A stretch of 35,956 nt of DNA from a bacterium. GTDB lineage: Bacteria > Patescibacteriota > Saccharimonadia > Saccharimonadales > UBA4665. Each line of letters begins with the position of its first letter. Position 1 is the stretch's first letter. Made by a program: the position numbers and the translations under genes. Of this stretch, positions 747-31,638 are shown piece by piece. The DNA lies in NCBI GenBank assembly GCA_021829145.1, contig JAJZOE010000012.1, positions 1 through 35,956 on the forward strand, read 5' to 3'. The notes below the pieces were generated by a model, which saw only the letters and a program-made list of their open reading frames with translations, made no database searches and was not told where the DNA came from.

Positions 747-1838
747 ATGAAAATAGTAGTTTATCCGAAAGACCCTAATCCATATCAGGATTTATTATAT
801 AGCTCAATTAAGGATAGGCACACAACAGATAAAATTACCTTTATGTCAGGTCCTACGAAGTATCAAACTATCAACCTGTTTTTCTTGCCCTTTCAATTAA
901 TTTTATATAGATTATTTGGTTACGATATTTTTCATATTCATTGGTTCTACACGTTTGAAATACCTAAACTCAATAACAGGTTAACCCAATGGTTAATGAT
1001 GTATTATTGTGTTTCATTTGTTTATTTTGTAAAAATGCTAGGCTTTAAATTAGTTTGGACAGTTCATGAAACTATTTCTCCAACTGCTTTGACAGATAGA
1101 GAGAAATCAATATCAAAATATATATCTCAATTTACTTCGATTATTGCAGATGCCAAAATTATTCACTCCAGTGTAGTGATTAATGAGATGCTAGATAATG
1201 GTCTTAATACAGACCGTACGTTCATAGTGCCACACGGTAGTTATAAAAATGTATATCCTGACAGTATTACAAGGAAAAAAGCACGAGAAGAATTGAAAAT
1301 TAAATCTCACGAAAAAATGGTATTATTCTTCGGCCTTGTTAGACCCTATAAGGGTGTCGACGATCTAATACTGGCTTTTTCGAAACTAAAATTACCAAAT
1401 TTAAGATTAGTAATTGCTGGAAAATGTATCGATAATGAACTTCTAAGAAGGATTCAAAGTTTGCATAATGCAGTTGAGTTTGACTTCTATGATGAATATA
1501 TTGCAGATGAAGATGTTTCTAAGTACTTTAAGGCTAGTGACATTGTTTGCCTTCCATTTAAATCAATAACAACAAGCGGGTCTACACTGCTTGCGCTTTC
1601 ATTTGGTAAGCCTATCATAGCCCCAAGATTAGGAGCTTTAGTTGATCTTCCGTCTAATGTCGGATATCTTTATGATATGCAAAGACCAGGTTCTCTAGAG
1701 ACTTGTCTTCGAAAAGCCTTAAAAAGCAATAAACATTTATCCAATATAGGCAAAAACTCAAAGTCTTATGTTGATACTTTATCGTGGGATAAAATAGCAG
1801 ATAAAACTTATACGGTTTACGAGGATGTCTTAAAATAG
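747..1838 (+). CDS. GT4-family glycosyltransferase
   Basis: 363 residues with the two-Rossmann GT-B layout. The N-terminal half carries DIFHIHWFYTFEIP and a VWTVHE motif. The C-terminal half has VLFFGLVRPYKGVDDLILAF (start of the nucleotide-sugar domain), a late SDIVCLPF strand and TSGSTLLALSFGKPIIAP, the donor-binding loop of the family. The classical EX7E glutamate of that loop is not obvious. It presumably transfers a sugar from an activated donor to a lipid-linked or surface glycan at the cytoplasmic face. The start has only a weak ribosome site. The 3' end overlaps the convergent flippase gene by 22 bases. Base composition is strongly AT-rich, as in the flippase and GT2 genes. Donor and acceptor cannot be told. 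Confidence 0.85.
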   Translation: MKIVVYPKDPNPYQDLLYSSIKDRHTTDKITFMSGPTKYQTINLFFLPFQLILYRLFGYDIFHIHWFYTFEIPKLNNRLTQWLMMYYCVSFVYFVKMLGFKLVWTVHETISPTALTDREKSISKYISQFTSIIADAKIIHSSVVINEMLDNGLNTDRTFIVPHGSYKNVYPDSITRKKAREELKIKSHEKMVLFFGLVRPYKGVDDLILAFSKLKLPNLRLVIAGKCIDNELLRRIQSLHNAVEFDFYDEYIADEDVSKYFKASDIVCLPFKSITTSGSTLLALSFGKPIIAPRLGALVDLPSNVGYLYDMQRPGSLETCLRKALKSNKHLSNIGKNSKSYVDTLSWDKIADKTYTVYEDVLK

Positions 1839-3172
1839 CTCGTGGGTCCCCAAAGGGAAAGTTTATTGCGGCCAAATATAGCCAAGTATACGAGGGCAGT
1901 TAAAGCTTGTGAAAGCAGCCAGCCCCAAGCTGCTGAAGCTAAACCGTAGGGAGCTAACATATACACAATGCCAACAACTAAAATCGCATTGAAAACGTTC
2001 ATAATAAAGTAAGCGTGAGAATTCTGATTCATATTTAACCATGTGTCACCTAGCCAATTAATGGCAATAAAGAAACTAGCTACTGCTAAAATAACTAGTG
2101 GCCATAGGCCATACTGAACATACTTAATTCCATATATACGTAAGATTGGCCAGCTAAATATTATGATCATCAAAACCACTGGAGTGAGTAAAGAATATGT
2201 ATGATGCAATGCTTTTTTCAAAATGTGTACTTGCAGAATAGTTGTCTTATACTGTGAAGATTCTGAAATCATTGCCGTTCCGGTCGAGTTAGGAATAATT
2301 GATAAGAAAGCCGAAATCTGTATTGGGATATAAAAAAATGCAGCAGACTCTGCTCCAAGTCTATTTAATATGATGATTGGGATAAGGCTACCAGGTAATA
2401 TTCCAAAAATTCCTCCAAAGTAATTCCCTATTGCAAAGTTCTTATGAGACGCTACCTCTTTAATTTTGATCTTAAATGTTTCATTCTTGAGAAGTTTGTT
2501 TATAACTATAAATAAGCTATAAATTATACTAATAATAAAAACAACAACATATATAGTCACTATGCCATTTAAAGCCATAGATGCTACAAAAAAAGGTAAA
2601 ATTATACGAGGTATATTTGTAACTATGGCTTTTGCTAAAATGTATTGACCTTTGCGGTATGCCATAAGTACGCTATCAATAAAGGTACTTAATGTATTGC
2701 CTATAACATAGAATATTAATATAAGGGATAAGTAAAAAGACGTATTTACGAAACTCAAAGACCCTATTAGGTATTTTATAAGAAATACGCCAAATACTCC
2801 TCCAATTATTGACATGATAATGATCAAATACAAAGAGGTTGCAAAAAAACTACCTCGTTTAGTGCTTGTTGGTAAATATCTAATGATGGTATTAGGGAGC
2901 CCAAGATTAGTAAAGGTCGAAATTAAAAGCCCGAAGCTTATAAACGATGTGGCATAACCTATGTTTTTGACCGAAAACAGATGAGCACATATTATCCAGA
3001 ATATAAAAGATATAAAGGCATTTATCCCCTGGCTAATAATTAAATAAAAAGAATTTTGTCGCATGCTATCATGCACAAAATTATTAATAAGATTTTGAAT
3101 GTTGAATCCAATAGTGTAGGATCCTAATGTCTTCTTAGTTTGGCCTTTAGCAGATCTCATAACTGACAACAT
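1817..3172 (-). CDS. Wzx/MOP-superfamily polysaccharide flippase
   Basis: 451 residues, nearly all hydrophobic, with about 12 membrane helices. The N-terminal pattern (a polar lead, then YLIISQGINAFISFIFWIICAHLFSVKNIGYATSF) is typical of oligosaccharide flippases of the MATE/MOP superfamily, as is SFGLLISTFTNLGLPNTIIRYLP. It should carry lipid-linked oligosaccharides from the inner to the outer face of the membrane. The start overlaps the end of the GT2 gene by 26 bases, so the two are probably translationally coupled; an alternative ATG lies four codons in. It is the last gene of the exosortase unit, which suggests that the glycan made here and the sorted proteins belong to one surface layer. 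AT-rich. Substrate unknown. Confidence 0.85.
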   Translation of the reverse strand: MLSVMRSAKGQTKKTLGSYTIGFNIQNLINNFVHDSMRQNSFYLIISQGINAFISFIFWIICAHLFSVKNIGYATSFISFGLLISTFTNLGLPNTIIRYLPTSTKRGSFFATSLYLIIIMSIIGGVFGVFLIKYLIGSLSFVNTSFYLSLILIFYVIGNTLSTFIDSVLMAYRKGQYILAKAIVTNIPRIILPFFVASMALNGIVTIYVVVFIISIIYSLFIVINKLLKNETFKIKIKEVASHKNFAIGNYFGGIFGILPGSLIPIIILNRLGAESAAFFYIPIQISAFLSIIPNSTGTAMISESSQYKTTILQVHILKKALHHTYSLLTPVVLMIIIFSWPILRIYGIKYVQYGLWPLVILAVASFFIAINWLGDTWLNMNQNSHAYFIMNVFNAILVVGIVYMLAPYGLASAAWGWLLSQALTALVYLAIFGRNKLSLWGPTSYFKTSS

Positions 3173-4046
3173 AAATAGATGTATCTTTCAAATCAAGTCG
3201 TGCTTTGTGTGATCCTATAAACAAATAGTATAATCGTCTAAATACAATTCTAATGTCTGGATGAGGAATGACGTATACAAGGTGTATAAAGTAAAATCCA
3301 ATAAGATTAATTTTTCTTTTATTTAAATTTTTATAAAAGAACCTAAACTCATTAGCGAAAGATTCCACGTCCCTAAATAAACCGCTATTTGCCCTACTTC
3401 CACCACTTGCCGTGTGGTAATGCTTTAGTGAGGCCGATGTTTTGTATGTGATTTTATAGCCTTCTGCCATAACTCTGTAAGCCATATCGGTTTCAAATCG
3501 GTGAGCATTTTTTATATATCCGGTATCAAACCCACCTAATTTTTTAATAACACTCTTTCTAAATGACATATTACAACCTATGGCTCCAGATAGAGCTAAA
3601 GAGTCATAATTATAATCAAAGCCACCAACATTCCTTCCAGTACTCGTTATGTGATAAAGAGTCTTTGACTCTGGTTTACCAGGAACTTTTACTCGTCCGG
3701 CAACGCCAGCAACTAATGGATCTACATAAGCCTTAACGTGTTCAGCAATAAATCCTGGGTCAAGCTCAACGTCATCGTCAATAAATATCACTATGTCTCC
3801 TTTTGCCTTTGATATGCCGAAGTTCTCTGCAGCCGGTATAGATGGCGGCGATACATGATAATATCTAAATTTCTTGTCTTGAATACTTTTGATAAATTTA
3901 GTGGTAGCTATTTCATGTTTTTCTGATTGATCGACAATTATTAATTCAAAATTTTTATAATCCTGTTTTAAAACAGACTGTATTGCACGAACTAAGTCTT
4001 GTTCGCGGCGATAAGTTGCAATAATTATGCTTGCCATTATGTTCAT
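3147..4046 (-). CDS. GT2-family glycosyltransferase
   Basis: 299 residues of GT-A type. SIIIATYRREQDLVRAIQSVLKQDY opens the nucleotide-binding fold, PAAENFGISKAKGDIVIFIDDDVELDPGF carries the metal-binding DDD (residues 90-92), GAIGCNMSFRKSVIKKLGGFD is the acceptor-side motif, and ETD in the next helix is a candidate catalytic region. The C-terminal 80 residues contain hydrophobic stretches that may hold it at the membrane. It would add a sugar to a membrane-bound intermediate. The gene lies 16 bases after the exosortase gene and overlaps the flippase gene, all on one strand. A GAGGT lies about 10 bases before the ATG; a second ATG three codons in is possible. AT-rich compared with the exosortase gene next to it. 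Confidence 0.88.
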   Translation of the reverse strand: MNIMASIIIATYRREQDLVRAIQSVLKQDYKNFELIIVDQSEKHEIATTKFIKSIQDKKFRYYHVSPPSIPAAENFGISKAKGDIVIFIDDDVELDPGFIAEHVKAYVDPLVAGVAGRVKVPGKPESKTLYHITSTGRNVGGFDYNYDSLALSGAIGCNMSFRKSVIKKLGGFDTGYIKNAHRFETDMAYRVMAEGYKITYKTSASLKHYHTASGGSRANSGLFRDVESFANEFRFFYKNLNKRKINLIGFYFIHLVYVIPHPDIRIVFRRLYYLFIGSHKARLDLKDTSIYVVSYEIC

Positions 4047-4062
4047 AAAAGTCTTAACCTCA

Positions 4063-5022
4063 TTAAATTGTTTTTATACTCTTATCAATAATCATCCATC
4101 TATAAGAAATTAACCAAAAAATACCGGAGAAGATAATAAAGAAAATCATTCCGGCATAGGTGTGGAATAGACTAAAAGCTATCTGGGGGTTAATGTAGTA
4201 GCCTGCCAGAATAAGGGAATACACTCTTAGGATGTTAAAACCAAAGAGGAGTATCAGGGCGATCGGAAAAGCCCAAAGCAGCTTTCCTTTATTGAATTTG
4301 CCCCAGTCAAGTACACCTATTACTGCATAAAGGCCACTAAAGAGAGCTATAGACTCGATACCTGAGCAGTACTGGGCTACATTAATGCCGAATTTAGATA
4401 ATAGTAAAGTTCGCGGCGCCAATATGGATGCGTGTATGCCGGTAATAGTAAGGAGCCACTTTACAGAATATAGAACGGATGTGGCTAGTATTTGCCATAA
4501 ATTATATACGGCGTATAAAAATCCATAGAATATTACGGACAATCCTAGTGAAATCAGTAGCTCTTTTTTATATGTATTTAATATTTTTCGTAAGATTACG
4601 ACGCCAATTGTGCCTAACGCTGCAAAGACTACGCTGCTTAGCATACTTATGTTAACAACCACTGGCCATAAGATGCCTTGAGTTCCAGCTATTAGCTGTG
4701 AAATACCAATCCATGAGATTATGGCGGCCAATATAGTGAGTACAATCCAGGTTATCTGGCATGGCATCCACTTAGTAAGCTTAATAGTCTGTTTGCGTCT
4801 GCCCACTAATACTGCTAGAACAACTAAGCCAAATAGTAATGACTTGCCTGCTCCGCCGTAGATTTGAAACCCATCTTTGCCTACTAAGCCGTGGCTAATT
4901 ATCCTTGGCCCTATAGTTCCGGTTAATATTAGACAAATAGCTAAAAAGGCTGCCGTCCGTCTGATTAGCGGATAGGCAGCCCTCAAATTGTTTTTTTGGT
5001 ACTTCTTACTTATTGCTTTCAC
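4063..5022 (-). CDS. exosortase/archaeosortase-family transpeptidase
   Basis: 319 residues with about eight or nine membrane helices. The family's catalytic set is complete and in order: Cys219 in NVAQYCSGIES, Arg266 in GFNILRVYSLILAGYY, and His287 in SLFHTYAGMIFF. Enzymes of this family cut C-terminal sorting signals such as PEP-CTERM or PGF-CTERM and are thought to transfer the protein to a membrane lipid or surface polymer. The two genes just upstream encode proteins with matching C-terminal signals, the likely substrates. It starts with GTG inside the last codons of the upstream substrate gene (17-base overlap), which implies translational coupling. The N-terminal 160 residues are an added, poorly conserved membrane region; the core domain is the C-terminal half. 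The exact subfamily cannot be assigned. Confidence 0.9.
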   Translation of the reverse strand: MKAISKKYQKNNLRAAYPLIRRTAAFLAICLILTGTIGPRIISHGLVGKDGFQIYGGAGKSLLFGLVVLAVLVGRRKQTIKLTKWMPCQITWIVLTILAAIISWIGISQLIAGTQGILWPVVVNISMLSSVVFAALGTIGVVILRKILNTYKKELLISLGLSVIFYGFLYAVYNLWQILATSVLYSVKWLLTITGIHASILAPRTLLLSKFGINVAQYCSGIESIALFSGLYAVIGVLDWGKFNKGKLLWAFPIALILLFGFNILRVYSLILAGYYINPQIAFSLFHTYAGMIFFIIFSGIFWLISYRWMIIDKSIKTI

Positions 5023-5473
5023 TTGTGTGTCGGCGACGAACGATCATGAACGCGCCGGCTCCTGCTACAACTGCAATGGAACCAGTAATTACACCGAGTT
5101 CTGGAACGAGAGATACATTAACAATACCTACGTTTAACTTGTCTGTTCCGTACTCATTTATTACGCCGTTGTTTGTACCAGTCATGCCGTTATAGCTAGC
5201 TGTTACATTAATTTGTGAGCCTGCCGGACATAGTAAGCTGGAAAATTGAGCTAAATATGCACCGCTAGCATCTGTTGTTGTTGTGACGGTTGCCGATCCT
5301 TTACCAAAAGCACAAACTGCGGTTACGTCTGCATTAGCTACAGCTGAACCATTATTAGTTACTGTACCGGTTACGTCCGATACGCCACCAGTTAAAGTTA
5401 AAGCATTTGATTTAAGTGGCATAGCTAGTGCTACTAACATCAAAGCGGCTGAAAGAACCAACGCTTTCTTCAT
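5006..5473 (-). CDS. secreted protein with VPELG C-terminal sorting signal
   Basis: 155 residues. Signal peptide at 1-24 (MKK start, hydrophobic core, cleavage probably after SNA). Residues 32-118 look like one small beta-sandwich of the carboxypeptidase-regulatory/CNA-B type, with DVTGTVTNNGSAVANADV and DASGAYLAQF repeats of that fold and two cysteines (54 and 82) that could form a disulfide. The C-terminus is a three-part signal: VPELG at 123-127, a hydrophobic helix at about 128-145, and RRR at 146-148. The next gene overlaps it and encodes an exosortase, so it is a probable substrate, cut near VPELG and attached to the surface. AAGGAG lies well placed before the ATG. It is paralogous to the next upstream gene. 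Function of the sandwich domain is unknown. Confidence 0.85.
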   Translation of the reverse strand: MKKALVLSAALMLVALAMPLKSNALTLTGGVSDVTGTVTNNGSAVANADVTAVCAFGKGSATVTTTTDASGAYLAQFSSLLCPAGSQINVTASYNGMTGTNNGVINEYGTDKLNVGIVNVSLVPELGVITGSIAVVAGAGAFMIVRRRHTSESNK

Positions 5474-5556
5474 TCCTAAAAACTCCTTATATAATAGTAG
5501 GGCTTAATTCACAAGAAACTATGAGCCAAAAGTGCAACAAAGTCAACAATGTTTTA

Positions 5557-6003
5557 CTAAGATTGCAATGTTCTTTTGCGAACTACTAGAAAGGCGCCAG
5601 CGCCAGTCATAGCAGCAATAGTACCGGTAAAGATTCCAACTTCTGGAACCATTGATACATTTATTACGGCAACGTCTACATTGCATTTGCCTTCACTAGA
5701 AACGCCAGTTGCCGTACCGGTTTCACCATTTTTTGTTGCAACGACCGTAATGGTATTACCGTCCCCGCAGTGCTCCATTGTTACATAGTACTTGCCGGCG
5801 TGGTTTGTTAATGTTGTCTGGGTTTTTGTGTCGCAGGTTACTACCACTTTGGCGTGGTAAACAGGACTACCGTTGAACGTAATAGTGCCACTCACAACTG
5901 TTTTATCCGCATGCGGATAAAGCGTTGGGCTGGCAAACGTAGTTAGCGGCATAGCCATAATAGTTAATAAAGATATAACCACCCCGAGCAGAAGTTTCCT
6001 CAT
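5557..6003 (-). CDS. secreted protein with VPEVG C-terminal sorting signal
   Basis: 148 residues, a paralog of the following gene. Signal peptide 1-24 (MRKLLLG...TFAS). The mature part has the same carboxypeptidase-regulatory-like fold: VSGTITFNGSPVYHAKVVVTC, then NHAGKYYVTMEHCG, with cysteines at 57, 79 and 107. The tail is VPEVG (119-123), a Gly/Ala-rich hydrophobic helix, and RKR (142-144). The block from NVS(L/M) to VR(R/K)R is more alike between the two paralogs than the rest, as expected if one enzyme reads it. First gene of the unit, with AAGGAG about 8 bases before the ATG and a plausible promoter further up. It could be a surface coat protein or a carrier for the glycan made by the neighbouring glycosyltransferases (inference). 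Confidence 0.85.
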   Translation of the reverse strand: MRKLLLGVVISLLTIMAMPLTTFASPTLYPHADKTVVSGTITFNGSPVYHAKVVVTCDTKTQTTLTNHAGKYYVTMEHCGDGNTITVVATKNGETGTATGVSSEGKCNVDVAVINVSMVPEVGIFTGTIAAMTGAGAFLVVRKRTLQS

Positions 6004-6130: not shown

Positions 6131-6367
6131 ATGAAATGGCGTCGCTTGGCTCAGTCGGTTAGTCTGGCTTTTACGCTATATGGGTTTTTTGGCTGGGTTT
6201 ACATTGTTATTAACTCAGAAGTTCATATGCAAACACTAGCTATGCAGTTAACTCATTTTGCCTCATGGCCTCATGAGGATACCTTTGGCGAAGTGTGTTT
6301 TCTGGTATCTTTTATTAGCTTTATTATTTATATGAATATCAGAGACAAAAGGCCTAGCGAAAAATGA
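6131..6367 (+). CDS. small two-helix membrane protein
   Basis: 78 residues with hydrophobic helices at about 10-30 and 54-70, joined by a polar loop, and a basic C-terminal end (RDKRPSEK). Not recognised. The frame is the only open one between the divergent exosortase unit and the protease gene, and its last 14 bases overlap the convergent protease gene. The -10 box 8 bases before the ATG supports expression as a leaderless mRNA. Its position between two membrane-processing genes may be chance. Confidence 0.55.
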   Translation: MKWRRLAQSVSLAFTLYGFFGWVYIVINSEVHMQTLAMQLTHFASWPHEDTFGEVCFLVSFISFIIYMNIRDKRPSEK

Positions 6368-7874
6368 AGGCTGCCAGCAGGCTTAGGTAAGTTAGCTTCA
6401 TTAGGGCGTTAGCCGTAGTAGTAAGCATTAAGTTTTCTTTTTTATAGTAGATAAAGCTAAGAAGTCCTCCGGCAATGAGTCCGAAAATGAGAGGCAGATA
6501 AAGGCCATGGCCGTAGCCGATAAAGCCATATAACATGGCTGAGAGGACGGCGGCCGATACTCGGCTCATTATCTTACCGGCTCTATTTTGGATTAGACCT
6601 CTAAAGAACATCTCTTCAGTGAAAGCAAACACAACTGATAATAGACCGACCAGGCCGAAAGATATACCCTTAAAACTATACTGATAGCGCAACATATCAT
6701 AGCCTAGAAAGCCTAAAGCGCCACCGGCTATGACCATTAACGGCAGATAGATTAGGTAACCATTAAACTTAAGCCGGCTTTTTCCTACTGGAGAGGAAAC
6801 GGTAAAACTGTAACGGTACCACAGCGTTAACAGCAAGATAGCAGCATAAAAAACGGTTAATGAACCTAGAGCGTTTGCTTTAGGCAGGCTAAGATTAATC
6901 ATTGTCGCGATCGGCAGAATGGCGGCGGATATGGCCAGCTGGCGGTAAATTTTCTTCCAGATAGCCAGCGCTCCTAAAAGGACAAATGCGCTAGCGTTAA
7001 TGTAGACACCGGCAATTGGTTTATAGCTAAGCGTCAGCTGCGAGCCGATGAGAGAAATAAGTACAACTGATAATACCCAGCCTTCTTTAACAAACCACGA
7101 TTTGATCATACCCAAATACATGCCGCTGGACAGTTTAATAGTTGAGGTATGATTAACCAAATAAGCGGCTGGCACTGACATCTTAGAAATATACTTTTTT
7201 AATTGGGAAGACTGCTGCTTAGACTTGTCTTTATTCTTTTTAGCCTTGGTGCTAGGTGTCTTTTTATTCGGTTTTTTAGGCCTGCTTTTTTTAGACTTGT
7301 CAGGAGCTAATGCGGATAAACCTGGTAATTTAAAGGTGAATTTAGCCGTAGTTTGCTTCATGTAGTTGTTTAGCTGGTGTTTGATTAAGATTAATGATTT
7401 AGTTGACGGTTTGCTTATTATTGGCGGCTCGATATGGGCAAAGCTGGGAATTCTAAAGATATATTTGCTGTTAGCTATTGCCGAGTTAGGCAGTCTTTTT
7501 AATTTGTCTAGACTTAAGAGTAGTGATCGATTAGCTGCGATTAAATAATGCTTAAGATGACTTGGTCTAGCCGGCTTTGTTTCAGCTTTTGGCGCTTCTT
7601 TGATGATTAAGCTGTTTAGATCTCGGAGTTCGTATCTGGGTATCTGAAGCGCTGGATGGTATTGCTTGTTTAATAATCTGCTGGCCATCTTAGCTAGCTT
7701 CGAGTTAGTTTGTTCTGCCAGTTGATAAGTTAAAACTACTTGCTCCGGCTGTCTAATTACTATTTTCGGAACTTTTACTTGGGGCTTATATGGTTTAATA
7801 ATCCGCTTAAGTCTATAAAAAGATAGTTTCTTAGGTTTAGAGTAATAATTAATATTTAAAAAGCGGATGTTCAC
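6354..7874 (-). CDS. CPBP-family intramembrane protease with long basic N-terminal extension
   Basis: 506 residues. The C-terminal half (about 260-506) has eight or so membrane helices and the CPBP/CAAX-protease signature FTEEMFFRGLIQNRAG (Glu420, Glu421, Arg425), followed by YGFIGYGHGLYLPL with His456. The third conserved element, normally a His with an Asn a few residues on, reads TTTANAL here, so one metal ligand may be missing. Residues 1-260 are soluble and rich in Lys and Pro, with repeated blocks of PKI/IPRY/IPSF/KLPGL type and a very basic stretch near 193-222 (KKSRPKKPNKK and on). Ordinary members lack this extension. GTG start, two bases after the stop of the upstream small membrane gene, so probably coupled. 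Possible roles are prenyl-protein processing or processing of small peptides; the substrate is unknown. Confidence 0.8.
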   Translation of the reverse strand: MNIRFLNINYYSKPKKLSFYRLKRIIKPYKPQVKVPKIVIRQPEQVVLTYQLAEQTNSKLAKMASRLLNKQYHPALQIPRYELRDLNSLIIKEAPKAETKPARPSHLKHYLIAANRSLLLSLDKLKRLPNSAIANSKYIFRIPSFAHIEPPIISKPSTKSLILIKHQLNNYMKQTTAKFTFKLPGLSALAPDKSKKSRPKKPNKKTPSTKAKKNKDKSKQQSSQLKKYISKMSVPAAYLVNHTSTIKLSSGMYLGMIKSWFVKEGWVLSVVLISLIGSQLTLSYKPIAGVYINASAFVLLGALAIWKKIYRQLAISAAILPIATMINLSLPKANALGSLTVFYAAILLLTLWYRYSFTVSSPVGKSRLKFNGYLIYLPLMVIAGGALGFLGYDMLRYQYSFKGISFGLVGLLSVVFAFTEEMFFRGLIQNRAGKIMSRVSAAVLSAMLYGFIGYGHGLYLPLIFGLIAGGLLSFIYYKKENLMLTTTANALMKLTYLSLLAAFIFR

Positions 7875-7876
7875 TG

Positions 7877-8095
7877 TTATGACACCTTGATTTGCTTATA
7901 GGCGGCAAAGATTAAAATGCCAATTAGTACCAGAAATAGCGGATAGAAGTATCTTAGCTCTTTCCTTTTGGCCCTTGGCTTTTCTGAATAAATAAGCTCA
8001 ACCACAATTAAGGCGGCGATCAGTATAACCGTATTAATAATCAGCACCGTGTGCTGCAGAGTGGAACTGAAACTAAATGGCAAATGAAGAAACAC
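7877..8095 (-). CDS. small two-helix membrane protein upstream of the CPBP protease
   Basis: 72 residues, hydrophobic at about 15-35 and 50-66, with a basic loop (EKPRAKRKELR) between. The layout predicts both ends outside and the loop inside. GTG start with a GAGGT rather far upstream. The stop is two bases before the protease start, so the two are likely made together, and it may be a partner or substrate of the protease. No family recognised. Confidence 0.6.
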   Translation of the reverse strand: MFLHLPFSFSSTLQHTVLIINTVILIAALIVVELIYSEKPRAKRKELRYFYPLFLVLIGILIFAAYKQIKVS

Positions 8096-16774: not shown

Positions 16775-17173
16775 ATGAGCGAAGTTGAAGAAACGCCTAG
16801 AAGATGGTCTGCTACGAGGATAGCTTCGGCAGCGATTCTGCTGATCGTTATATTGGGGGCGGTTGCCTACGGTATATATTCTTGGGCGAATAGCGGCAGT
16901 AATACTAAACATAACCAGACAGCCTCTAATTCTGTAACTAATAATTCGGCCAATAATCTAGCCCAACCTTTTCCGAAGACTAACAGTTCCGGTAGCAACA
17001 GTTCGGCCGGTGCTTCCGGATCCACCACTAATGGCGTTAGTGGGCAGTCGGCTTCTAACTCCTCCACTCTGACTAACACCGGTCCGGGCGAGACGGCACT
17101 TATTGGTTTTATGGCGGCAACAGCCGTTGGTACTCTTATCCACTACGGCTGGCGTAGGCACCGCGTAAAATAA
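16775..17173 (+). CDS. double-anchored surface protein with LTNTG-type C-terminal tail
   Basis: 132 residues. A short cytoplasmic lead, a membrane helix at about 16-37, then a 60-residue low-complexity linker made of Ser, Asn, Thr, Gly and Ala (40-98). The end is LTNTGPGE (99-106), a hydrophobic segment (107-125) and RRHR (127-130). The tail has the order of a sortase signal: LPXTG-like motif with Thr in place of Pro, helix, positive charge. It differs clearly from the VPE[L/V]G tails at 5006-6003, so it probably goes to another enzyme or stays as a two-helix membrane loop. GGGAGGT precedes the ATG. Function unknown; the linker may be glycosylated (inference). Confidence 0.7.
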   Translation: MSEVEETPRRWSATRIASAAILLIVILGAVAYGIYSWANSGSNTKHNQTASNSVTNNSANNLAQPFPKTNSSGSNSSAGASGSTTNGVSGQSASNSSTLTNTGPGETALIGFMAATAVGTLIHYGWRRHRVK

Positions 17174-17178
17174 ACGCT

Positions 17179-17637
17179 TTAACTTAATGCTACGCTATGT
17201 ACGATTTGGCGCAGATTATTATCTACCTTGGCAACGACATATAAATCCCGGCAAGTTATTTTCTGGCCGGCAGTAATACTACTATCACTACTCAAAGTTA
17301 TGTGGGGTATAAATCCGCGGCCGATGTGTAAGCTTGACTCTAGTTCGCCTATAGGCGATAGCCCATCGATTAATTGCTTATGCAGGGTTGTTATTTGTTC
17401 CGTTTTATTTAGTAGCATGACTTGGACGTTGTGGTCTCTGCCAAACCGGGCACTGTGCTCGACTGTTAGCTTAATAGGCGGGAACGAGCGGGCGGTTGAT
17501 TCAATAAACTGCAAAAATATCGGCAAATCAAGCTCATGGAGCTTGAACCAAGGCACAAGGGTTATATGAAACGGCCAAAATTCGAACTGCTGGTTTAATC
17601 TAGCCTTCTTAAGCATGAAGCAAAGAAGAAGGGTCAT
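17179..17637 (-). CDS. 2H phosphoesterase (LigT / 2'-5' RNA ligase-like)
   Basis: 152 residues with the two H-x-T motifs of the 2H phosphoesterase superfamily: FHITL (His24, Thr26) and PHITL (His112, Thr114), about 88 residues apart as usual. Members hydrolyse cyclic phosphodiesters or 2'-5' linkages in RNA or nucleotides. The ATG directly follows the TAG of ytxH-like 17638, so translation is likely coupled; a second ATG is seven codons in. It lies 5 bases from the convergent surface-protein gene. Exact substrate unknown. Confidence 0.8.
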   Translation of the reverse strand: MTLLLCFMLKKARLNQQFEFWPFHITLVPWFKLHELDLPIFLQFIESTARSFPPIKLTVEHSARFGRDHNVQVMLLNKTEQITTLHKQLIDGLSPIGELESSLHIGRGFIPHITLSSDSSITAGQKITCRDLYVVAKVDNNLRQIVHSVALS

Positions 17638-17886
17638 CTAGCTGCCGATTTTATCTATAGCCTCGTGGGCCGCTTTCCTGGCGGCTGTTAGAGGGTCGTC
17701 TTTTTTACCGACAACGTCACTAACTTTATGCTTGGCGGTTTCAAGGCCTTCTTTAGTTTTATCGGCGATGTCTTCCCTCATCTCTTTACCGCTCTTCGGG
17801 GCGATTAAAAGACCGGTTACTACCCCTACTGCTGAACCGGCTATAATACCGGCAGCGACTGCACCCTTGTACTTAACATTACTCAT
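17638..17886 (-). CDS. YtxH-family small protein
   Basis: 82 residues. A Gly/Ala-rich hydrophobic segment (about 9-28, AVAAGIIAGSAVGVVTGLLIAP) is followed by KSGKEMREDIADKTKEGLETAKHKVSDVV, the YtxH pattern of one membrane helix with a charged amphipathic tail. Family members are linked to general stress, without a known activity. A strong GGAGGT precedes the ATG. First gene of a pair with the 2H phosphoesterase. Confidence 0.85.
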   Translation of the reverse strand: MSNVKYKGAVAAGIIAGSAVGVVTGLLIAPKSGKEMREDIADKTKEGLETAKHKVSDVVGKKDDPLTAARKAAHEAIDKIGS

Positions 17887-17945
17887 TTAAACCTCCAAAT
17901 TTCTTTTATGTTAGATATGTTAAACATTCCAAGCTTAAGCTTCAG

Positions 17946-18338
17946 TTAGGAAATTAACTCGCCGCCAATACTAATCCTCAGTTCCCTTTGTCGTGGACCG
18001 TCAAATTCTATTAAGATTACTCTTTGCCAGCGCCCCAGTAAGAGCTTGCCGTCATTAAAGGGGAGTGTCAGGCTGGTGCCGATAAGCGATGACCATAAAT
18101 GGTCGGGAAAGTGTTCCGGATCGTGAGGATGTTTCCAGTTTGCTAGCGGCGTTAAGCTTGAAACGGCCGTTAAGATGTCTTTGTCGGTGCCCGGATCGAG
18201 GTCGGCAGTGGTAATGGCGGCCGTGGTATGGGTAAGTAATAAGTTGACTAGACCGTTGCGGCTCAGATTTCTTTCAATTTGATCGGTAATATCGATAACT
18301 TGTCTTTTATATTGGGTGGTTATTGTAATATTGGCCAT
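17946..18338 (-). CDS. YjbQ/UPF0047-family protein
   Basis: 130 residues covering the whole family. Landmarks are LLTHTTAAITTADLDPGTDKDIL, NWKHPHDPEHFPDHLWSSLIG, GKLLLGRWQRVILIEFDGPRQREL. The conserved histidines and the Asp/Glu set are kept. Some members rescue thiamine-phosphate synthase activity when overproduced, but the true role is unsettled. AGGGT stands a few bases before the ATG. A perfect 12-base palindrome (AAGCTTAAGCTT, 17931-17942) follows the stop, without a T-run. Confidence 0.9.
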   Translation of the reverse strand: MANITITTQYKRQVIDITDQIERNLSRNGLVNLLLTHTTAAITTADLDPGTDKDILTAVSSLTPLANWKHPHDPEHFPDHLWSSLIGTSLTLPFNDGKLLLGRWQRVILIEFDGPRQRELRISIGGELIS

Positions 18339-18469
18339 ATATACCCTAGCGTTTAAGAGTTATCTTTACTTTTAAACCTCAGACCGGTTACAGCCAGTAA
18401 GTATTCTTATAGTAGATTATAAGAACCGAACCATATCATAGGTTTCACTATAGACAGGAGGGGTCTGCC

Positions 18470-18835
18470 ATGGGGTACAAGGAGTTAATTAAAAAAGTGC
18501 AAGTATATTCCGGCTTTTCTGATTCCGAAAGTAAAGATTCACTGGACTGCTTAGTAGAAACATTGGCTGTCAGATTGAGTGAAAACGAAAGAAAGGATTT
18601 TGCCAGCCAACTGCCTCAGGAACTGCAGGATATGGCTTTAGCGGTTTATCCCAGCGAAGAAAATACCAGCAAGGACATACTGGCGCAGTTCATGGAACTG
18701 CAGAACGTGGTCGAATCGAGGGCTAAAAAAGAAATTCTTTCAGCCTGGCAGGCACTGAAAGACACTGTGTCTAAAAGAGAGATTGATCACTTAAGAGATT
18801 GCCTGCCCAACCAGTTAAACAGCCTGCTCCGATAA
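18470..18835 (+). CDS. DUF2267-family protein
   Basis: 121 residues, all helical. [47 protein letters not shown] is the family's repeat of helices, and a second, weaker half follows ([20 protein letters not shown] and on). DUF2267 proteins are cytoplasmic and of unknown role. An AGGAGG site lies about 8 bases before the ATG. The last 21 bases overlap the convergent transporter gene. Confidence 0.85.
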
Positions 18836-20539
18836 CTTTTTGGTCCCATCGTTTTCTTCGGAAATATACTTGCCGCCTCTAAGCCATGAAGCATAAGCTG
18901 CCACGAGACAGGTAATAATAGCGAAAGTTAGAACGACTACCAGGCCGTGCTTGAAGGGTGTGGCTATTAGCTTCGGGAAATATTCTTTTGATGTCAGCCG
19001 TGCTGCCGCTGACGGGTGGAGAGTACTTAGCACCTTCGGTCCGAGTAGGGTTTTCAGTGGATTGTAGCCTAAGAACGCGGCAAACAGGTAGCTTATAGCC
19101 GGTAAATGCGACAGGTGCGTGGCCAGTTGGGCGGAGACGCCATTGTTAATCAGTCCGTGGTAGATACTGCCGGGAACGCTGGAAGTCAGACCGACGATCA
19201 TCAGGCTGAAGAAGATACCGATAGATAGTGGCATGCCGACATTCATGAAAGTGGCCCGCATACCTGAAGCGACACCACGGAATTCAGAAGGTACCGAGTT
19301 CATAATACCGGCGGTATTGGGGGAAGAAAACATGCCGAAGGACAACCCATTGATCAACAGGATAATGGCAAACAGATAATAAGGGAAGTTTACCGGCAGC
19401 ATCATCATTAGACCGAAACTGAGCGCTGCAATCAGCATGCCTCCGGTGGCAAACGGCCGGGCGCCATATTTATCTGATAACCAGCCGGATACAGGACCGG
19501 CGATTAGAAAGCCAATGGTGGTTGGAATCATATAGATTCCGGCCCAGAGCGGCGTGTTGGTGAATGCATAGCCATGCAGTGGTAGCCATATACCCTGCAG
19601 CCACATAATCAGCATAAACTGCAGACCGCCTCTGCCCATGGCCGCTAAAAGCCCGGCAACATTTCCGGCCGTAAAGGCCCGAATTTTAAACAGGTCCAGC
19701 TTAAACATCGGCTCCTTAACTTTGCGCTCCAGCAGGGCAAATAGCAGCAGCACAACAATGCCGGCAGCAATCAGAGATATGACCATCGGACTGCTCCATC
19801 CCATATCCGAAGATCCGTAAGGCTTTATTCCATATGTCAGTCCAATAAGCACCATGGCCAGTCCGGCGGCGAATGTAATATTGCCGATCCAGTCGATTTT
19901 CGCCGGATGGAAGACGTCGATTTCTTTTAGGGCAATATAGGACCAGATAATGCCGACTATACCCACCGGTACGTTGAATAGAAAAACCCAACGCCAGGAG
20001 AACTGAGCTAGAAAGCCGCCGACTAAAATACCGAAAAATGAACCAGCTAAGGCGGCTATCTGGTTGATGCCTAGAGCCATGCCCCGTTGGTTGTGAGGAA
20101 AAGCATCGGTCAGGATTGCGGCTGAGTTAGCCATTAACAGAGCCCCGCCTACCGCTTGAACCATTCTGAAGATGATTAGCTCTATGGCTCCGGTTGAGCC
20201 ATGACTCCAGGTAAAACCGGCCAGCAGAGCTCCAAGGGAAAATATCACAAAACCGATGTTATACATTTTTACCCGGCCGTACATATCCCCTAGACGACCG
20301 AGGGATACTACTAAAATAGCCGTTACTAGCATGTACCCAAGAAGAATCCAGAGTAGATAGGAAAAGCTGTTGGCGGAAAGAGGATTAATTTTAATACCTC
20401 TGAATATGACCGGCAAAGCAATAATCAGACTGGTGGCATTAATCGAGGCCATCAGCATACCCAAGGTAGTATTAGATAAAGCTATCCACTTATATTTCGG
20501 GCTGGTTCGCTCTGCGTGTTTAAGAACTTTATTTAACAC
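18815..20539 (-). CDS. MFS exporter, DHA2 (14-helix) family
   Basis: 574 residues from the GTG at 20539, with about 14 membrane helices. [17 protein letters not shown] is helix 1 (motif D1-like, with Asn in place of the usual Asp), and [14 protein letters not shown] is the loop 2-3 motif A. The frame reaches a TTG at 20599, but GAGGG 8 bases before the GTG is the better site and the 20 extra residues are not family-like. It should export drugs or small metabolites by proton antiport. The loop near the end (about 485-525) is longer than usual. GC content is among the highest in the window. Convergent overlap with the DUF2267 gene. Confidence 0.85.
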
Positions 20540-20839
20540 TAATGATTCCCTCTTTCTCTTACAACCGGAATAGGCTGCGGTTGGTTTTTGGTTTTTCAAT
20601 AACCTTATTTAATAAATATTATATACCCTAGGTTTAGTTGCCAAGCAACGGCTTTGTGGCTTCTTAAAATTATGTTACCAATAGAAACAGCTGTAGGTCT
20701 TGGCGGTTTTTCGACTCAAGCCGGCCTCGTTAAAAGCTGCTACGAGTTAAGCTAAAAAATATCAGCCGGTACAATGTCTAAGACTGAGTTAAACAACAGT
20801 AAGTTACTTTACGGCTAGTTTGTGTCTACTAAGGCAGAT

Positions 20840-26728: not shown

Positions 26729-28105
26729 GTGGGAAATAGTTTCAGCTATTTAGAGAAAATTAAAAAAGCTAAACAAAAGTCGATAATTAAATTTGTTAAC
26801 CGGGGTTTATCTATAGCAGCAACTTTGACACTTATTGCCGTAATAGCGGCCCAGGCCTCATCGGCGCCAGTAAGAATACTAAAGGACGCCGTCAATACGG
26901 ATCATTCGATAAGTGTCTTAAGCCCGGCGCCTGATGCTGCCGTCGGAACACAAACATTGCTTAGTGCCCAATTAAGTGGCGAGCCCGCCGATGCTTATGA
27001 TATGTTCTGGTATGTCGATAACGGTACCTGGAATTGGATGGGAACCAACCCGACCAATCAGCAGAAGCAGGCTGTTATAAACTTTTCTAACTGGACCTGG
27101 CATCAGCCGAACGACCACTACACTATTACCTTAGTTGCCGTTATGCATGGCAGTGGACAGAGATATTACAGCGGCGTCCAGATCAATGTCGCAGCTAATA
27201 CTTCTGCGTCAGTAACTAAACCGGCGGCCTTAGTTAGCCAGGCAGTCAATACGGCCCAGAGCCTTTATGTTGCTCCAGATAGCAGCGCCGCTCAAACGGC
27301 TAACTCGACTAGTGACGTTAATATGAAGCGGATAATGTCTAAGATTGCCGCCCAGCCGGAAGCAATTTGGTTTGGCGATTGGAACTCAAATGTCCAATCC
27401 GCTGTTAATAGCTTGGTCACTTCAGCCGCTGACTTAGGCCAGGTACCGGTTCTGGTGGCTTATAACATACCGCAGCGTGACTGCGGCAGCTACTCAGCGG
27501 GCGGTGCTAGCTCCCCTGATGCCTACAAAGCCTGGATCCAAAGTTTTGCCAGCGGCATTAATAACCGGAAAGTAATTGTTATTTTAGAACCTGACGCTTT
27601 GGCCCAAATTAGTTGTTTGTCTGCTTCCGACCAGACGACCAGATACCAGCTGCTAAGCTATGCCGTTACTACGCTAAAGGCAAATCCTAACGCTCAGGTA
27701 TATCTTGATGCCGGTAATCCTGATTGGATTAGTGTATCGGTTATGGCTCAGCGGCTGAATGCCGCCGGCATAAATAATGCCAACGGTTTTAGCTTGAATG
27801 TTTCAAACTTCATTTCGACAGCCAGTAATATAAGCTACGGCAATCAGCTGTCGGCAGCGGTTAATGGTAAACACTTTGTTGTTGATACTGGAAGGAACGG
27901 CAACGGCTCTAACGGGCAATGGTGTAATCCTTCAGGTATGGCTCTCGGCAGCACGCCGACTGCAAATACCGGTGATCCGCTGGCTGACTATTTTCTGTGG
28001 ATTAAACCGCCGGGGGTATCTGACGGCACATGTAACGGCGGGCCAGCGGCAGGAACTTGGTGGCCCTGGTATGCCGAGCAGCTAGGCCTTAATGCCGGCT
28101 GGTAG
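26729..28105 (+). CDS. secreted GH6-family cellulase
   Basis: 458 residues from a GTG start with GAGGGG upstream. Signal region at about 27-46 (LSIAATLTLIAVIAAQASSA). Residues 58-155 form an Ig-like beta domain rich in Trp (WYVDNGTWNWMG, NWTWHQP). Residues 185-458 are the GH6 catalytic domain: VLVAYNIPQRDCGSYSAGG with general acid Asp251, VILEPDAL, VVDTGRNGNG with Asp386, and WIKPPGVSDGTCNGGPAAGTWW. GH6 enzymes cut beta-1,4-glucan with inversion, as endoglucanases or cellobiohydrolases; the type cannot be told. No known cellulose-binding module is recognised, unless the Trp-rich domain serves as one. It acts outside the cell and may stay anchored by the N-terminal helix. Confidence 0.92.
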   Translation: MGNSFSYLEKIKKAKQKSIIKFVNRGLSIAATLTLIAVIAAQASSAPVRILKDAVNTDHSISVLSPAPDAAVGTQTLLSAQLSGEPADAYDMFWYVDNGTWNWMGTNPTNQQKQAVINFSNWTWHQPNDHYTITLVAVMHGSGQRYYSGVQINVAANTSASVTKPAALVSQAVNTAQSLYVAPDSSAAQTANSTSDVNMKRIMSKIAAQPEAIWFGDWNSNVQSAVNSLVTSAADLGQVPVLVAYNIPQRDCGSYSAGGASSPDAYKAWIQSFASGINNRKVIVILEPDALAQISCLSASDQTTRYQLLSYAVTTLKANPNAQVYLDAGNPDWISVSVMAQRLNAAGINNANGFSLNVSNFISTASNISYGNQLSAAVNGKHFVVDTGRNGNGSNGQWCNPSGMALGSTPTANTGDPLADYFLWIKPPGVSDGTCNGGPAAGTWWPWYAEQLGLNAGW

Positions 28106-28204: not shown

Positions 28205-28480
28205 ATGTCTTGGCAAGAAGCGGTTTTAACACTCGGTCAAATCATTTTCATAGTCGCTCTGTTGCCATCAGTGTTTACCAAAGATAAGCCGGAAATATGG
28301 ACCAGCATATTAACCGGGGCGGTGGCTTACAGTATTGCCGTCACTTACACCACTTTGCATATGCCCTTGGCTGCTATTTCGGCCGGACTAAACGGGGTTT
28401 TCTGGACAATCTTAGCCGTACAAAAGCATCGACAGAATCAAGTAATCGCTAAAAAAAAGATCCGATCTAAGGTTACCTGA
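28205..28480 (+). CDS. small three-helix membrane protein
   Basis: 91 residues, three hydrophobic helices (about 7-23, 33-52, 54-72) and a Lys/Arg-rich tail. The opening WQEAVLTLGQIIFIVALLPSVFTKDKPEIWTS is a pattern I associate with a widespread uncharacterised family in Saccharibacteria, which supports the lineage guess. Leaderless-type start. Its last 8 bases overlap the convergent glucoamylase gene. Confidence 0.65.
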   Translation: MSWQEAVLTLGQIIFIVALLPSVFTKDKPEIWTSILTGAVAYSIAVTYTTLHMPLAAISAGLNGVFWTILAVQKHRQNQVIAKKKIRSKVT

Positions 28481-30839
28481 CAGTAACTGAGAAGTTTCGG
28501 TTTTCCCAGTCCTTAGCTTGAGTCCAGTAAAAGGTAAACTCAACTACTTCATCTTTGTTCAACCCTCCGGTAGGCAGGTCGGCGATATATATACCAAGAC
28601 CGCTGTCCGATGAATTAATATCTTTACTCGTCTTCCAACCATCAATTGAGTAGTGGATGGTGCAAGCAGATAATGTTTCTATCCGTAGATTCTTACCGGC
28701 CGGTATTTGTCGTAATTTGTTATTAAAGCGCCAGGCTCGTTTATCTGAAGTGGTATTATCCCTCAAATAACGTTTAACTGTTTGCTCGGGCATGTCAAAT
28801 ATCCGTCCGTCTTTTTGGGAGCGAAGCAGCTTAAGGTATTCGGCATGGGCCCAGGCTAGAGGCGTGGCCGATCCGGTGGCCTTACCCTTGTATAGATCAT
28901 GCTCCGGTATGTCTTCACTATCCCATACCTGTTCTGGATAAAGCCCGTTGCTATTGGCAAAACGTTCCATCGTTTCCTTAAGTTCGGCGGCATAACGGTG
29001 ATTATTAGCGGCCAACTCGTAATGGGCTCGTTCTCCCGTCAATAGCGGCCAACCCCGGCCAACCCCGGTACCATTAAACGGCGATCCGTCTTCATTTTCG
29101 CCGTATCCGTCATCGTTATAGCGGTGCCAGGTTGGGCCAAAAGGGGTCTCGATTTTAATCAGTTCGTCGATTATCTTGATGGTGTCGGTAATACGCTTAT
29201 CCTCCGGCGTTCGCAGGCCAAAACGAACTAGCGCCAGCGCGTCAGGGCTTATAAGGTTTATTGCAGGCATGCTGGCATTTTCCGGTTCGACGTTTTTAAC
29301 ATGAACGATCTGCTGGTAACGGGAAAGTTTACTGTTACCAAGCGGCATGATCCGCTCGTAATAACCAGCGACTGAATATTTCTGTGTCCAGTCAGTCCCC
29401 TGGGAATAGAGCCAGTCATCAATGCAGTCATACCAGATGTCTGCCGTTTCGCGCATGATGCAAGCAATATTATTCTCCTGATTTAAATCGGCCAGGTCGG
29501 CAGCAGCCAGTAAGGCGGCTATTTCTGCGGCTAGGGTAAAAGGCGTGTAGCCTGGATCTTCTTCCCATCTGTCCTGTTGGGTTACCGGGCCGTTCATCAT
29601 TAAAAAGGTGGCGGCTTTTTTGACCAGCGGCCAGAAACTTAGTGCCTGATCATCGCTTATTGCTTGCTCTCTCTTGGCTAAGTTGACCAGCAATATCGGC
29701 AAAGCAGTTTCGTCCATCTGGATACCATTCCAATAGGGTGTGCCGTCGGTCCACATGTTTTGCGGCCAATGTCCGTCGGGCTGCTGGGTTCTTGATAAAA
29801 ATTCTAAGCAACTAAGGACCGATTCCTTTTTACCGGCGGCAATCAGCCCGCCAGCCGCCTCAACCATATCTCTGGTCCAGACAACATGGTAACCGTTTCT
29901 GTCATTGTCGCCCTGCGAAAAGCCCCACGGCGTGGCCAGCCCGGCAATCAGCCCGCCAGCCGGATTTTTTGATTCATGACACTTAATTACCGCCAGGCTG
30001 ATTTTGGCCATATCGGGCGTGTCTTTAGTTAAACTATCCAGCCATTTCTTCCAGCCGTTTTTGTATTTAGACTCTGTTTCTTTAAAATTTCTTCCCAGGC
30101 TGTCAAGGGCGGTAATGATGGCTTCTTCAATCGAAGGACCAAAGCCAAGCGCTAGAATGAACTTGCCGTCGCATGTCCTCAGGTCTATTTCGCCGCTCAG
30201 GCTGATGTTACCGTTCATCGCTTGCATATATGGTTTGTCCAGGCACCTGTATCGTTTTAGTTGCTCCCAGCCATCATTAACTCCGACGAAACCGGTAGTT
30301 GCTTTTAAAAAGGGGGTCGAACAAACTAACGCCAGGGCGCAGTTATCTCTTTCGGCTACCAGGATTGATTGCTGGCCATGCCTGATTATTCGGGCGTTGT
30401 TACCGCTGCCCATACCGCCTAAGTGAGGTGTTATATGGGCATAAAGACTCAATTTGCTGACTTTACCTTTGAATTCCACTTGCTGTAGTAGGCAGTTATT
30501 GTCCGGATCGGAGATAATCTTCTTAACAAGAGTGTAGCGTCCGTCACGAGCGATATTGGTGACTTTAAAGGCCGGTACGCCCGGACTGCACCAGACGGTT
30601 GTGCTGTCGGTTTGCGACTGCTCCTCAGACAAATAATCTTTATTGTCGGTAACAATAAAGCCCATGTCTTTGATGCTTGGGGTATCTATTGCCGGATAAT
30701 AGACTTCATTGAGGATGCCCTTACCAACTGTAAACCAGACACTGCTGTCGTCGCTGAAGGCTGTACCAACAATATCTTTAGGACCAGGCGCCCACCTTGC
30801 GTCTGTTCCTGGTCCGTCTGGTGCTATTGTATCTGTCAT
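28473..30839 (-). CDS. GH15 glucoamylase (glucodextranase-like N-terminal domain)
   Basis: 788 residues from the ATG at 30839. The frame is open 11 codons further, into the SDR gene, but APDGPGTDARWAPGPKDIVGTAFS is the usual family beginning. Residues 10-260 match the bacterial glucoamylase/glucodextranase N-terminal beta domain. The (alpha/alpha)6 barrel follows with GFSQGDNDRNGYHVVWTRDMVEA, QQPDGHWPQNMWTDGTPYWNGIQMDETA, the acid Glu in RWEEDPGYTPFT and the base Glu in GRGWPLLTGERAHYE. It releases glucose from maltodextrin or isomaltodextrin ends. There is no signal peptide, so it acts in the cytoplasm, perhaps on storage glucan. It follows the SDR gene by about 16 bases, likely an operon. 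Confidence 0.92.
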   Translation of the reverse strand: MTDTIAPDGPGTDARWAPGPKDIVGTAFSDDSSVWFTVGKGILNEVYYPAIDTPSIKDMGFIVTDNKDYLSEEQSQTDSTTVWCSPGVPAFKVTNIARDGRYTLVKKIISDPDNNCLLQQVEFKGKVSKLSLYAHITPHLGGMGSGNNARIIRHGQQSILVAERDNCALALVCSTPFLKATTGFVGVNDGWEQLKRYRCLDKPYMQAMNGNISLSGEIDLRTCDGKFILALGFGPSIEEAIITALDSLGRNFKETESKYKNGWKKWLDSLTKDTPDMAKISLAVIKCHESKNPAGGLIAGLATPWGFSQGDNDRNGYHVVWTRDMVEAAGGLIAAGKKESVLSCLEFLSRTQQPDGHWPQNMWTDGTPYWNGIQMDETALPILLVNLAKREQAISDDQALSFWPLVKKAATFLMMNGPVTQQDRWEEDPGYTPFTLAAEIAALLAAADLADLNQENNIACIMRETADIWYDCIDDWLYSQGTDWTQKYSVAGYYERIMPLGNSKLSRYQQIVHVKNVEPENASMPAINLISPDALALVRFGLRTPEDKRITDTIKIIDELIKIETPFGPTWHRYNDDGYGENEDGSPFNGTGVGRGWPLLTGERAHYELAANNHRYAAELKETMERFANSNGLYPEQVWDSEDIPEHDLYKGKATGSATPLAWAHAEYLKLLRSQKDGRIFDMPEQTVKRYLRDNTTSDKRAWRFNNKLRQIPAGKNLRIETLSACTIHYSIDGWKTSKDINSSDSGLGIYIADLPTGGLNKDEVVEFTFYWTQAKDWENRNFSVTVR

Positions 30840-30855
30840 TTGTTGGTTGCCTAAC

Positions 30856-31638
30856 TTAACCGCCATGGGCAAAGTCGGGATAATCGGTCATGCCGCCATC
30901 CACAAAAATTGTCCGTCCGGTTATGTAAGAAGCTACGTCTGAAACTAATACTACGGCCATTTTGGCGACTTCTTCCGGCTCGCCGATACGTTTAAGGGGT
31001 ATCTTTTCCAGTAAATCTTTAAGTCCGGCGCTATTGGCCCAGACGTCCTGATTAATCGAGGTTTTTATAGCACCTGGAGCTAAGGCTAAAACCCGGACAT
31101 TGTAAGGTGCTGCTTCTTGGGCCATAGTTTTTGTTAGCATACTTAAGGCGGCTTTGCTGGATGTGTAGGCGCTATGTCCGCTCCAGGCTATGGTTTCATG
31201 GACTGACGAGGTAGCTAAAATAACGCCAGACTTTTGTTTTACCATGCGTTTTAGCGCCTGCCTGGCACAGTAAAAGTTGCCAATTAGGTTAATGTTTATG
31301 ACTTTAGCCCAATCCTTGACACTTATTTCCCAACTGTTGGCATGAACTCCGTCGATTCCGGCATTGTTTATTAAGATATCGATTCCATTCCATTCCCGGT
31401 CTAAGCGGTTGAACATCGATTCGACTTCATAATTGCTGGCTACATCAGCATGGACGGCTAAGGCTTCGCCGCCGCTGCTACGTATTTGCTGGACCATCTG
31501 TTCGGCGGCTGCCTGATTTGTGACATAGTTTATGGCCACTTTGGCACCAGCCGCTGCTAATTCGTTGGCAATTGCCGCGCCTATGCCGCTGTTACCGCCG
31601 GTAACCAAGGTTCTTTTACCTTGAAGGTTAATTTCCAT
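30856..31638 (-). CDS. short-chain dehydrogenase/reductase, glucose-dehydrogenase-like
   Basis: 260 residues, classical SDR. TGGNSGIG (13-20) binds the cofactor, INNAG is kept, the active site has Ser in ATSSVHE and YTSSK, and the C-terminus ends VDGGMTDYPDFAHGG, resembling glucose 1-dehydrogenase-type members. Position 37 region (KVAINYVTN) lacks the acidic residue typical for NAD, so NADP is possible. Standing directly upstream of a glucoamylase, it could oxidise released glucose (inference). Its transcript probably starts in the 76-base space upstream, where TATCAT is a weak -10. Confidence 0.88.
   Translation of the reverse strand: MEINLQGKRTLVTGGNSGIGAAIANELAAAGAKVAINYVTNQAAAEQMVQQIRSSGGEALAVHADVASNYEVESMFNRLDREWNGIDILINNAGIDGVHANSWEISVKDWAKVININLIGNFYCARQALKRMVKQKSGVILATSSVHETIAWSGHSAYTSSKAALSMLTKTMAQEAAPYNVRVLALAPGAIKTSINQDVWANSAGLKDLLEKIPLKRIGEPEEVAKMAVVLVSDVASYITGRTIFVDGGMTDYPDFAHGG

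Follow-up and report, generated by a model that had tools for sequence, protein, structure and literature searches.

The window (the whole 35,956-nucleotide stretch of DNA that was analyzed, which is one contig of a 924-kb genome that is 73% complete) appears to carry a genuine protein-sorting system of Saccharibacteria-type genomes that has received little documentation, because an enzyme-plus-tagged-protein pair found in it recurs in five other genomes and nowhere else among the several hundred relatives that were searched. The best reading of the data is a dedicated, mobile exosortase system that is sporadic in Saccharimonadia and that is marked by a PE[FYLV]G tail in a fixed register. We consider a dedicated system of this kind highly probable; in it, one enzyme would serve 1 to 6 private substrates, cleaving them at the tail and transferring them to an acceptor at the cell surface. 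In the open literature that we searched, no paper pairing exosortase with Saccharibacteria was found, and exosortase occurs together with "candidate phyla radiation" only in a hot-spring virus study. Because the pathway is reduced to one enzyme and 1 to 6 tiny, foldable substrates, it is well suited to finding out to which acceptor exosortases join their proteins.

The exosortase and its tailed substrates

An exosortase-family gene, two genes for small secreted proteins, a GT2 glycosyltransferase gene, and a flippase gene all lie on the (-) strand between positions 1817 and 6003. In the order from substrate A to the flippase, the intergenic distances are 83 nt, -17 nt, 16 nt, and -26 nt (negative values are overlaps), which confirms the initial description of five co-directional genes with overlaps or short gaps. 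Based on this spacing, the five genes are predicted to form an operon. The features of the region are as follows.

1817..3172, (-) strand: Wzx-like flippase, 451 aa, overlapping the GT2 gene; PF01943, E = 7e-13, cutoff passed
3147..4046, (-) strand: GT2 glycosyltransferase, 299 aa, 16 nt downstream of the exosortase gene; PF00535, E = 6.6e-25, cutoff passed
4063..5022, (-) strand: exosortase-family transmembrane enzyme, 319 aa; its GTG start codon lies within the final codons of the substrate B gene
5006..5473, (-) strand: substrate B, 155 aa; signal peptide, transthyretin/CarboxypepD_reg-like beta-sandwich, two invariant Cys, C-terminal sorting tail
5006..5107, (-) strand: sorting tail of substrate B; VPELG, an 18-aa hydrophobic stretch, and RRR
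5557..6003, (-) strand: substrate A, 148 aa; 41% identical to its paralog, substrate B
5557..5649, (-) strand: sorting tail of substrate A; VPEVG, an 18-aa hydrophobic stretch, and RKR
6354..7874, (-) strand: CPBP (Rce1-like) membrane protein, 506 aa, encoded upstream of the two substrate genes; PF02517, E = 4e-10
7877..8095, (-) strand: 72-aa membrane protein accompanying the CPBP gene, recognized by its identity to proteins at other loci

The window enzyme scores 56.1 bits against PF09721 (curated cutoff, 25.7 bits; E = 4.6e-15) and 54.3 bits against TIGR04178 (curated cutoff, 23 bits), and by these matches we assign it to the exosortase/archaeosortase superfamily. Hydrophobic segments run along its entire length, as in a multihelix membrane protein. 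Cys219 (codon 4366-4368), Arg266 (4225-4227), and His287 (4162-4164) are invariant in six homologs and also in three XrtE proteins, and thus the exosortase with this triad that had been read from the sequence is borne out by both the profiles and these comparisons. The AF2 model of the enzyme is of low quality (pLDDT 63), and the geometry of the triad is therefore unsupported by the model.

Both window substrates have a signal peptide, as read from the sequence, and their two tails share a 22-residue register, which confirms that they are C-terminally tagged secreted proteins. Like the tailed proteins of the related loci, each of them also has a single transthyretin-like domain between signal peptide and tail. 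The beta domain of substrate B is modeled by AF2 with a pLDDT of about 94 over residues 31 to 100, and in a Foldseek comparison the model resembles transthyretin-like proteins, SdrD B domains, and SpaA pilin domains. Pfam matches to this domain are weak: CarboxypepD_reg is matched by 10 of the 15 members of the substrate family, including substrate B, in which the match is below the cutoff.

A profile of the enzyme family gave full-length matches in five of 393 genomes of the window's order, to which we added G045, a genome from another order of the same class. The six loci are the window, L009 (G222), L010 (G148), L011 (G045), L040 (G766; same contig as L033), and L041 (G794), and the enzymes of the five other Saccharimonadia genomes are 46 to 57% identical to the window enzyme. 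PF09721 is matched above its cutoff in 4/393 genomes of the class and 7/380 genomes of the phylum, and no match was found in 18 genomes of the same genus. When genome contigs were searched, a single-protein query found no relatives and an alignment query found two; no exosortase relatives were found in viral contigs or among PDB sequences. The start codon is GTG in 5/6 exosortase genes, and the start overlaps the preceding substrate gene in the window, L010, and L041, an arrangement that fits translational coupling.

The number of tailed substrates adjoining the enzyme is 2 in the window, 3 at L009, 2 at L010, 6 at L011, and 1 each at L040 and L041. We looked for homologs without VPE[L/V]G-type tailed neighbors, which the first-pass annotation had named as counterevidence, and found that 6/6 homolog loci carry tailed neighbors. 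In 24 chosen genomes, full-length substrates are confined to these loci. Across 295 genomes of the order, full-length substrates are present in 5/5 genomes with the enzyme and in 0/290 without it, and the remaining substrate matches in these genomes are partial and cover the beta domain only. In the window's own genome, at 73% completeness, one exosortase and two tailed substrates were the only ones found. Since the substrates and the enzyme are present or absent together, the central prediction of the first-pass annotation, that the exosortase is dedicated to substrates of its own, holds for this Saccharibacteria-type genome, and the enzyme-substrate pairing is strongly supported.

The consensus of the tail at the six loci is [VIL]PE[FYLV]G, 18 aa, and RR. 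Its P...22...R register is exact in 15/15 tailed substrates, and two cysteines, the motif Pro, and a basic residue 22 positions later are invariant across the 15 sequences. A loose form of the tail pattern, applied to 1,221 six-frame ORFs (from the larger loci, some of which are counted twice), matched every substrate, and its further matches were two tailed proteins adjoining other Patescibacteria exosortases and two spurious ORFs; with so few nonsubstrate matches among the 1,221 ORFs, the pattern is not a matter of chance. As judged from sequence, the window exosortase very probably recognizes the tail of the adjoining substrates. One substrate at L009 (8236-8673) has a VPVFG motif and a tail shortened to RRS and is possibly a decaying copy, and L011 has seven tandem substrate paralogs, six of them tailed and one with its tail lost.

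The tails might also be ordinary LPXTG-like signals for the genome's sortase, with the exosortase acting elsewhere. PF04203 sortase genes are present in 13/13 genomes tested, including the window's, and the tails have weak matches to the sortase-signal models NF058582 and NF033846. However, sortase is also present in genomes without such tails, while the tails track the exosortase exactly, and there is no Thr at the Thr position of LPXTG. When the 15 substrates were scanned, the 25 most-matched of 30 families included no PEP-, PEFG-, or VPEID-CTERM model, and the sortase-signal models, the sole sorting-signal models among them, all remained below the cutoff. We regard recognition by sortase as very improbable, and recognition by the neighboring exosortase is the reading that we carry forward.

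Genes accompanying the enzyme-substrate pair

The first-pass annotation had joined the GT2 and flippase genes to the exosortase and its substrates in one self-contained unit that would put a small protein on a glycan or lipid at the cell surface. Taken as a five-gene pathway, this means that the GT2 would synthesize the glycan and the flippase would export it. The tight co-directional spacing favors such a five-gene pathway, and it is also consistent with the facts that the loci usually lie inside surface-polysaccharide clusters and that the XrtG and XrtE systems likewise adjoin glycosyltransferases and flippases. However, these genes are not kept at the other loci. Downstream of the enzyme, GT2 precedes the flippase in the window and follows it at L010, and the L010 flippase and GT2 are 28% and 26% identical to their window counterparts; the L010 flippase, at just 28%, is nevertheless the nearest to that of the window. 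L009 carries, after the enzyme, genes for a hydrolase-like protein and for a CsaB-like pyruvyl transferase, at L011 and L040 a pyruvyl transferase gene comes after the substrate array or the enzyme, and L041 has no GT2, flippase, pyruvyl transferase, or hydrolase-like gene. In G019 (L079) and G229 (L080), the glycan neighborhood is present and the enzyme and substrates are absent, with the CPBP and hydrolase-like genes separated by just a few hundred bases, which indicates that the cassette and the glycan genes can be separated. With both genes missing from L041, other genes in their place at L009, L011, and L040, and weakly similar, swapped versions at L010, the GT2 and flippase fall outside the conserved exosortase unit. 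The claim of a single self-contained unit does not stand, and we judge the five-gene pathway unlikely; the dedicated system of enzyme and private substrates does not include it.

A CPBP gene and its 72-aa companion lie upstream of the substrates at 4/6 loci (the window, L009, L010, and L041), and CPBP is absent at L011 and L040. This linkage, like the XrtE likeness described below, was absent from the first-pass annotation. In the order, the CPBP profile is matched in 7/393 genomes, which are 4/5 of the enzyme-bearing genomes and 3/388 of the others (Fisher P = 1.8e-7, a value that treats related genomes as independent). The three CPBP genomes in which the enzyme was not found are G019, G229, and G796; in G796 the enzyme may be missing because of fragmentation, since the contig is just 3.4 kb. 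Thus, CPBP is linked with the exosortase yet is not strictly required.

Of the two motifs of CPBP glutamic proteases (myxosortase-like), EExxxR is kept in 6/7 CPBP orthologs and lost in L010, and the His of HxxxN is replaced in 7/7. Protease activity is doubtful in L010, in which both changes coincide, and the CPBP orthologs outside L010 are putative, unproven proteases. The window CPBP has a long, basic N-terminal extension (506 aa, compared with about 280 in L009, L010, and L041). The 72-aa companion is 65 to 71% identical to those beside CPBP at L009, L041, and L078 and 41 to 52% identical to those at L010 and L079. No strong match to window positions 6354 to 8095, which encode CPBP and the companion, was found in the 18 same-genus genomes.

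Related sorting systems and a proposed mechanism

The closest named relative of the Saccharimonadia enzymes is XrtE/VPEID-CTERM of Rhodobacterales. TIGR04162 (XrtE) is matched by 6/6 enzymes with the best E value of any model, although the window enzyme, at 54.2 bits, does not reach the cutoff of 150. The two systems have the same catalytic residues, a CPBP domain is associated with both, and both often lie in polysaccharide clusters. A tiny tailed gene (57 to 88 aa; VPEI[D/S], a helix, and basic residues) is usually found beside xrtE: in five of the loci examined a small VPEI[D/S]-tailed gene adjoins xrtE, and in a sixth it is three genes away. In contrast, exosortase and CPBP are one protein in XrtE and separate genes here, as seen in three plasmid-derived XrtE proteins that have PF09721 and PF02517 in one chain. 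Furthermore, the window enzyme is just 21 to 24% identical to XrtE, and the Saccharimonadia substrates differ in having a folded beta domain together with PE[FYLV]G as the motif. The first-pass annotation had proposed a tree with the known Xrt and Art families. In the tree that we built, with a reference set that includes XrtE and is without XrtA and archaeosortases, the XrtE proteins group in a clade of their own (99/100), and the six Saccharimonadia enzymes are outside it and group together with moderate support (72/93); a plasmid search with an XrtA-like Patescibacteria enzyme found no reference sequences.

These likenesses raise the question of whether the system is a split XrtE, homologous to the fused XrtE/protease, in which the exosortase and a separate CPBP protease would act sequentially on the same substrates. 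The TIGR04162 matches, the fused XrtE proteins, the small VPEID/VPEIS-tailed genes next to xrtE, and the CPBP association all point in this direction. Against it are the position of the enzymes outside the XrtE clade, the lack of CPBP at L011 and L040, the presence of CPBP without exosortase in G019 and G229, and the missing His of CPBP motif 3. We consider sequential action by a split XrtE possible but doubtful. A broader proposal, which we hold to be a little more doubtful still, is that these bacteria, which have tiny genomes and probably depend on hosts, would have a separate-gene XrtE counterpart in which exosortase and unfused CPBP together process small proteins of one domain each and attach them to a lipid or glycan of the surface, the module moving as a cassette inside surface-polysaccharide islands. 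If true, this would let the cells exchange the beta-domain proteins that they display. The CPBP linkage is in any case a hint, besides the XrtE fusion, of cooperation between exosortases and CPBP proteases.

The dedicated exosortase system can also be compared with better-known ones. The first description of PEP-CTERM/EpsH came from bacteria that have an outer membrane and exopolysaccharide genes (PMC1569441), and the first-pass annotation had treated exosortases as rare in single-membrane bacteria. This was overstated, since the XrtG system of Lactiplantibacillus plantarum, a cluster with a tailed protein, an exosortase, and two glycosyltransferases in a single-membrane bacterium, is a direct precedent (PMC12854382). 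Like XrtG/Firmicu-CTERM of Firmicutes, the Saccharimonadia system combines a tailed protein and an exosortase in single-membrane bacteria (PMC12854382); unlike in XrtG, the glycosyltransferases are not conserved, and the XrtG profile has no match at E<=1 for the six enzymes. With EpsH/PEP-CTERM (XrtA type), it shares a transmembrane enzyme with Cys/Arg/His, a P-E-x tail, and nearby exopolysaccharide genes (PMC1569441), whereas those systems were described from outer-membrane bacteria and have a median of 8 substrates and a PEP motif; the window enzyme scores 33.5 bits against TIGR02602, short of the cutoff of 105. Archaeosortase A/PGF-CTERM is of the same superfamily, with a tripartite tail and an envelope without an outer membrane, but its motif is PGF rather than PE[FYLV]G, and the ArtA model is matched weakly by 1/6 enzymes.

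Dedicated one-enzyme/one-target systems are known for rhombosortase and other sorting enzymes (PMC3237569). Other Patescibacteria exosortases lie beside one tailed protein, with the motifs IPEIS (L024), IPEFS (L027), VPEFS (L028), VPEAA (L029), and LPERA (L030), and these proteins are larger than the small Saccharimonadia substrates. Because several other exosortases adjoin a tailed protein, dedicated exosortase-target pairs may be common in Patescibacteria.

The mechanism that we infer includes substrate cleavage, a lipid or glycan acceptor, and any role of CPBP. Sec would export the substrates, the tail would keep them in the membrane, and Cys219 would cut at the PE[FYLV]G motif or close to it, with formation of a thioester. 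The substrate would then pass to an acceptor that carries an amine and lies on the outside of the single membrane. Lipid attachment has been proposed as a model for archaeosortase A (PMC7157517), and since no glycosyltransferase or flippase is conserved, a general membrane lipid of this kind or a common surface glycan is a likelier acceptor than a glycan made specially for the system. Cooperation of the exosortase with the separate CPBP protease is possible, because in XrtE the equivalent domain is part of the same chain as the exosortase. The fact that the loci have no conserved acceptor-making gene would equally suit an enzyme that is a protease and frees the small domains into the medium without transpeptidation; however, exosortases and archaeosortases are regarded as transpeptidase-like enzymes, and attachment to lipid has been described for ArtA (PMC7157517), and release into the medium seems to us improbable.

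Genomic setting of the loci

Within the window, positions 16775 to 20599 are syntenic with the same-genus genome G013, with identity up to 86%, and an MFS gene at 32535 to 33980 is 82% identical to that of G013. The possibility of a contaminant contig was rejected, since this MFS match and the synteny lie on the same contig. When 39 kb of G013 was compared, positions 1 to 8.1 kb of the window had no counterpart, and from 8.1 to 16.6 kb a single gene had a weak one. Because the left ~16.6 kb is almost without a counterpart in the compared stretch, the predicted operon lies in a variable region. Rfam and tRNA scans of the window gave no matches.

Genes for a response regulator and a histidine kinase are divergent from the substrate-exosortase genes at both L011 (4957-7044) and L040 (4486-6706) and recall the PrsK/PrsR pair near EpsH systems (PMC1569441). 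Runs of similar proteins of ~500 to 680 aa lie beside the exosortase locus at L040 (9718-15852) and L011 (13387-16968), and several of these have a "GDGVTDDT" (pectate-lyase/tailspike-like) motif. The window also has a GH6 gene (26729-28105; E = 8e-68) and a GH15/glucodextranase gene (28473-30872; E = 4e-88), both of which are unusual in so small a genome.
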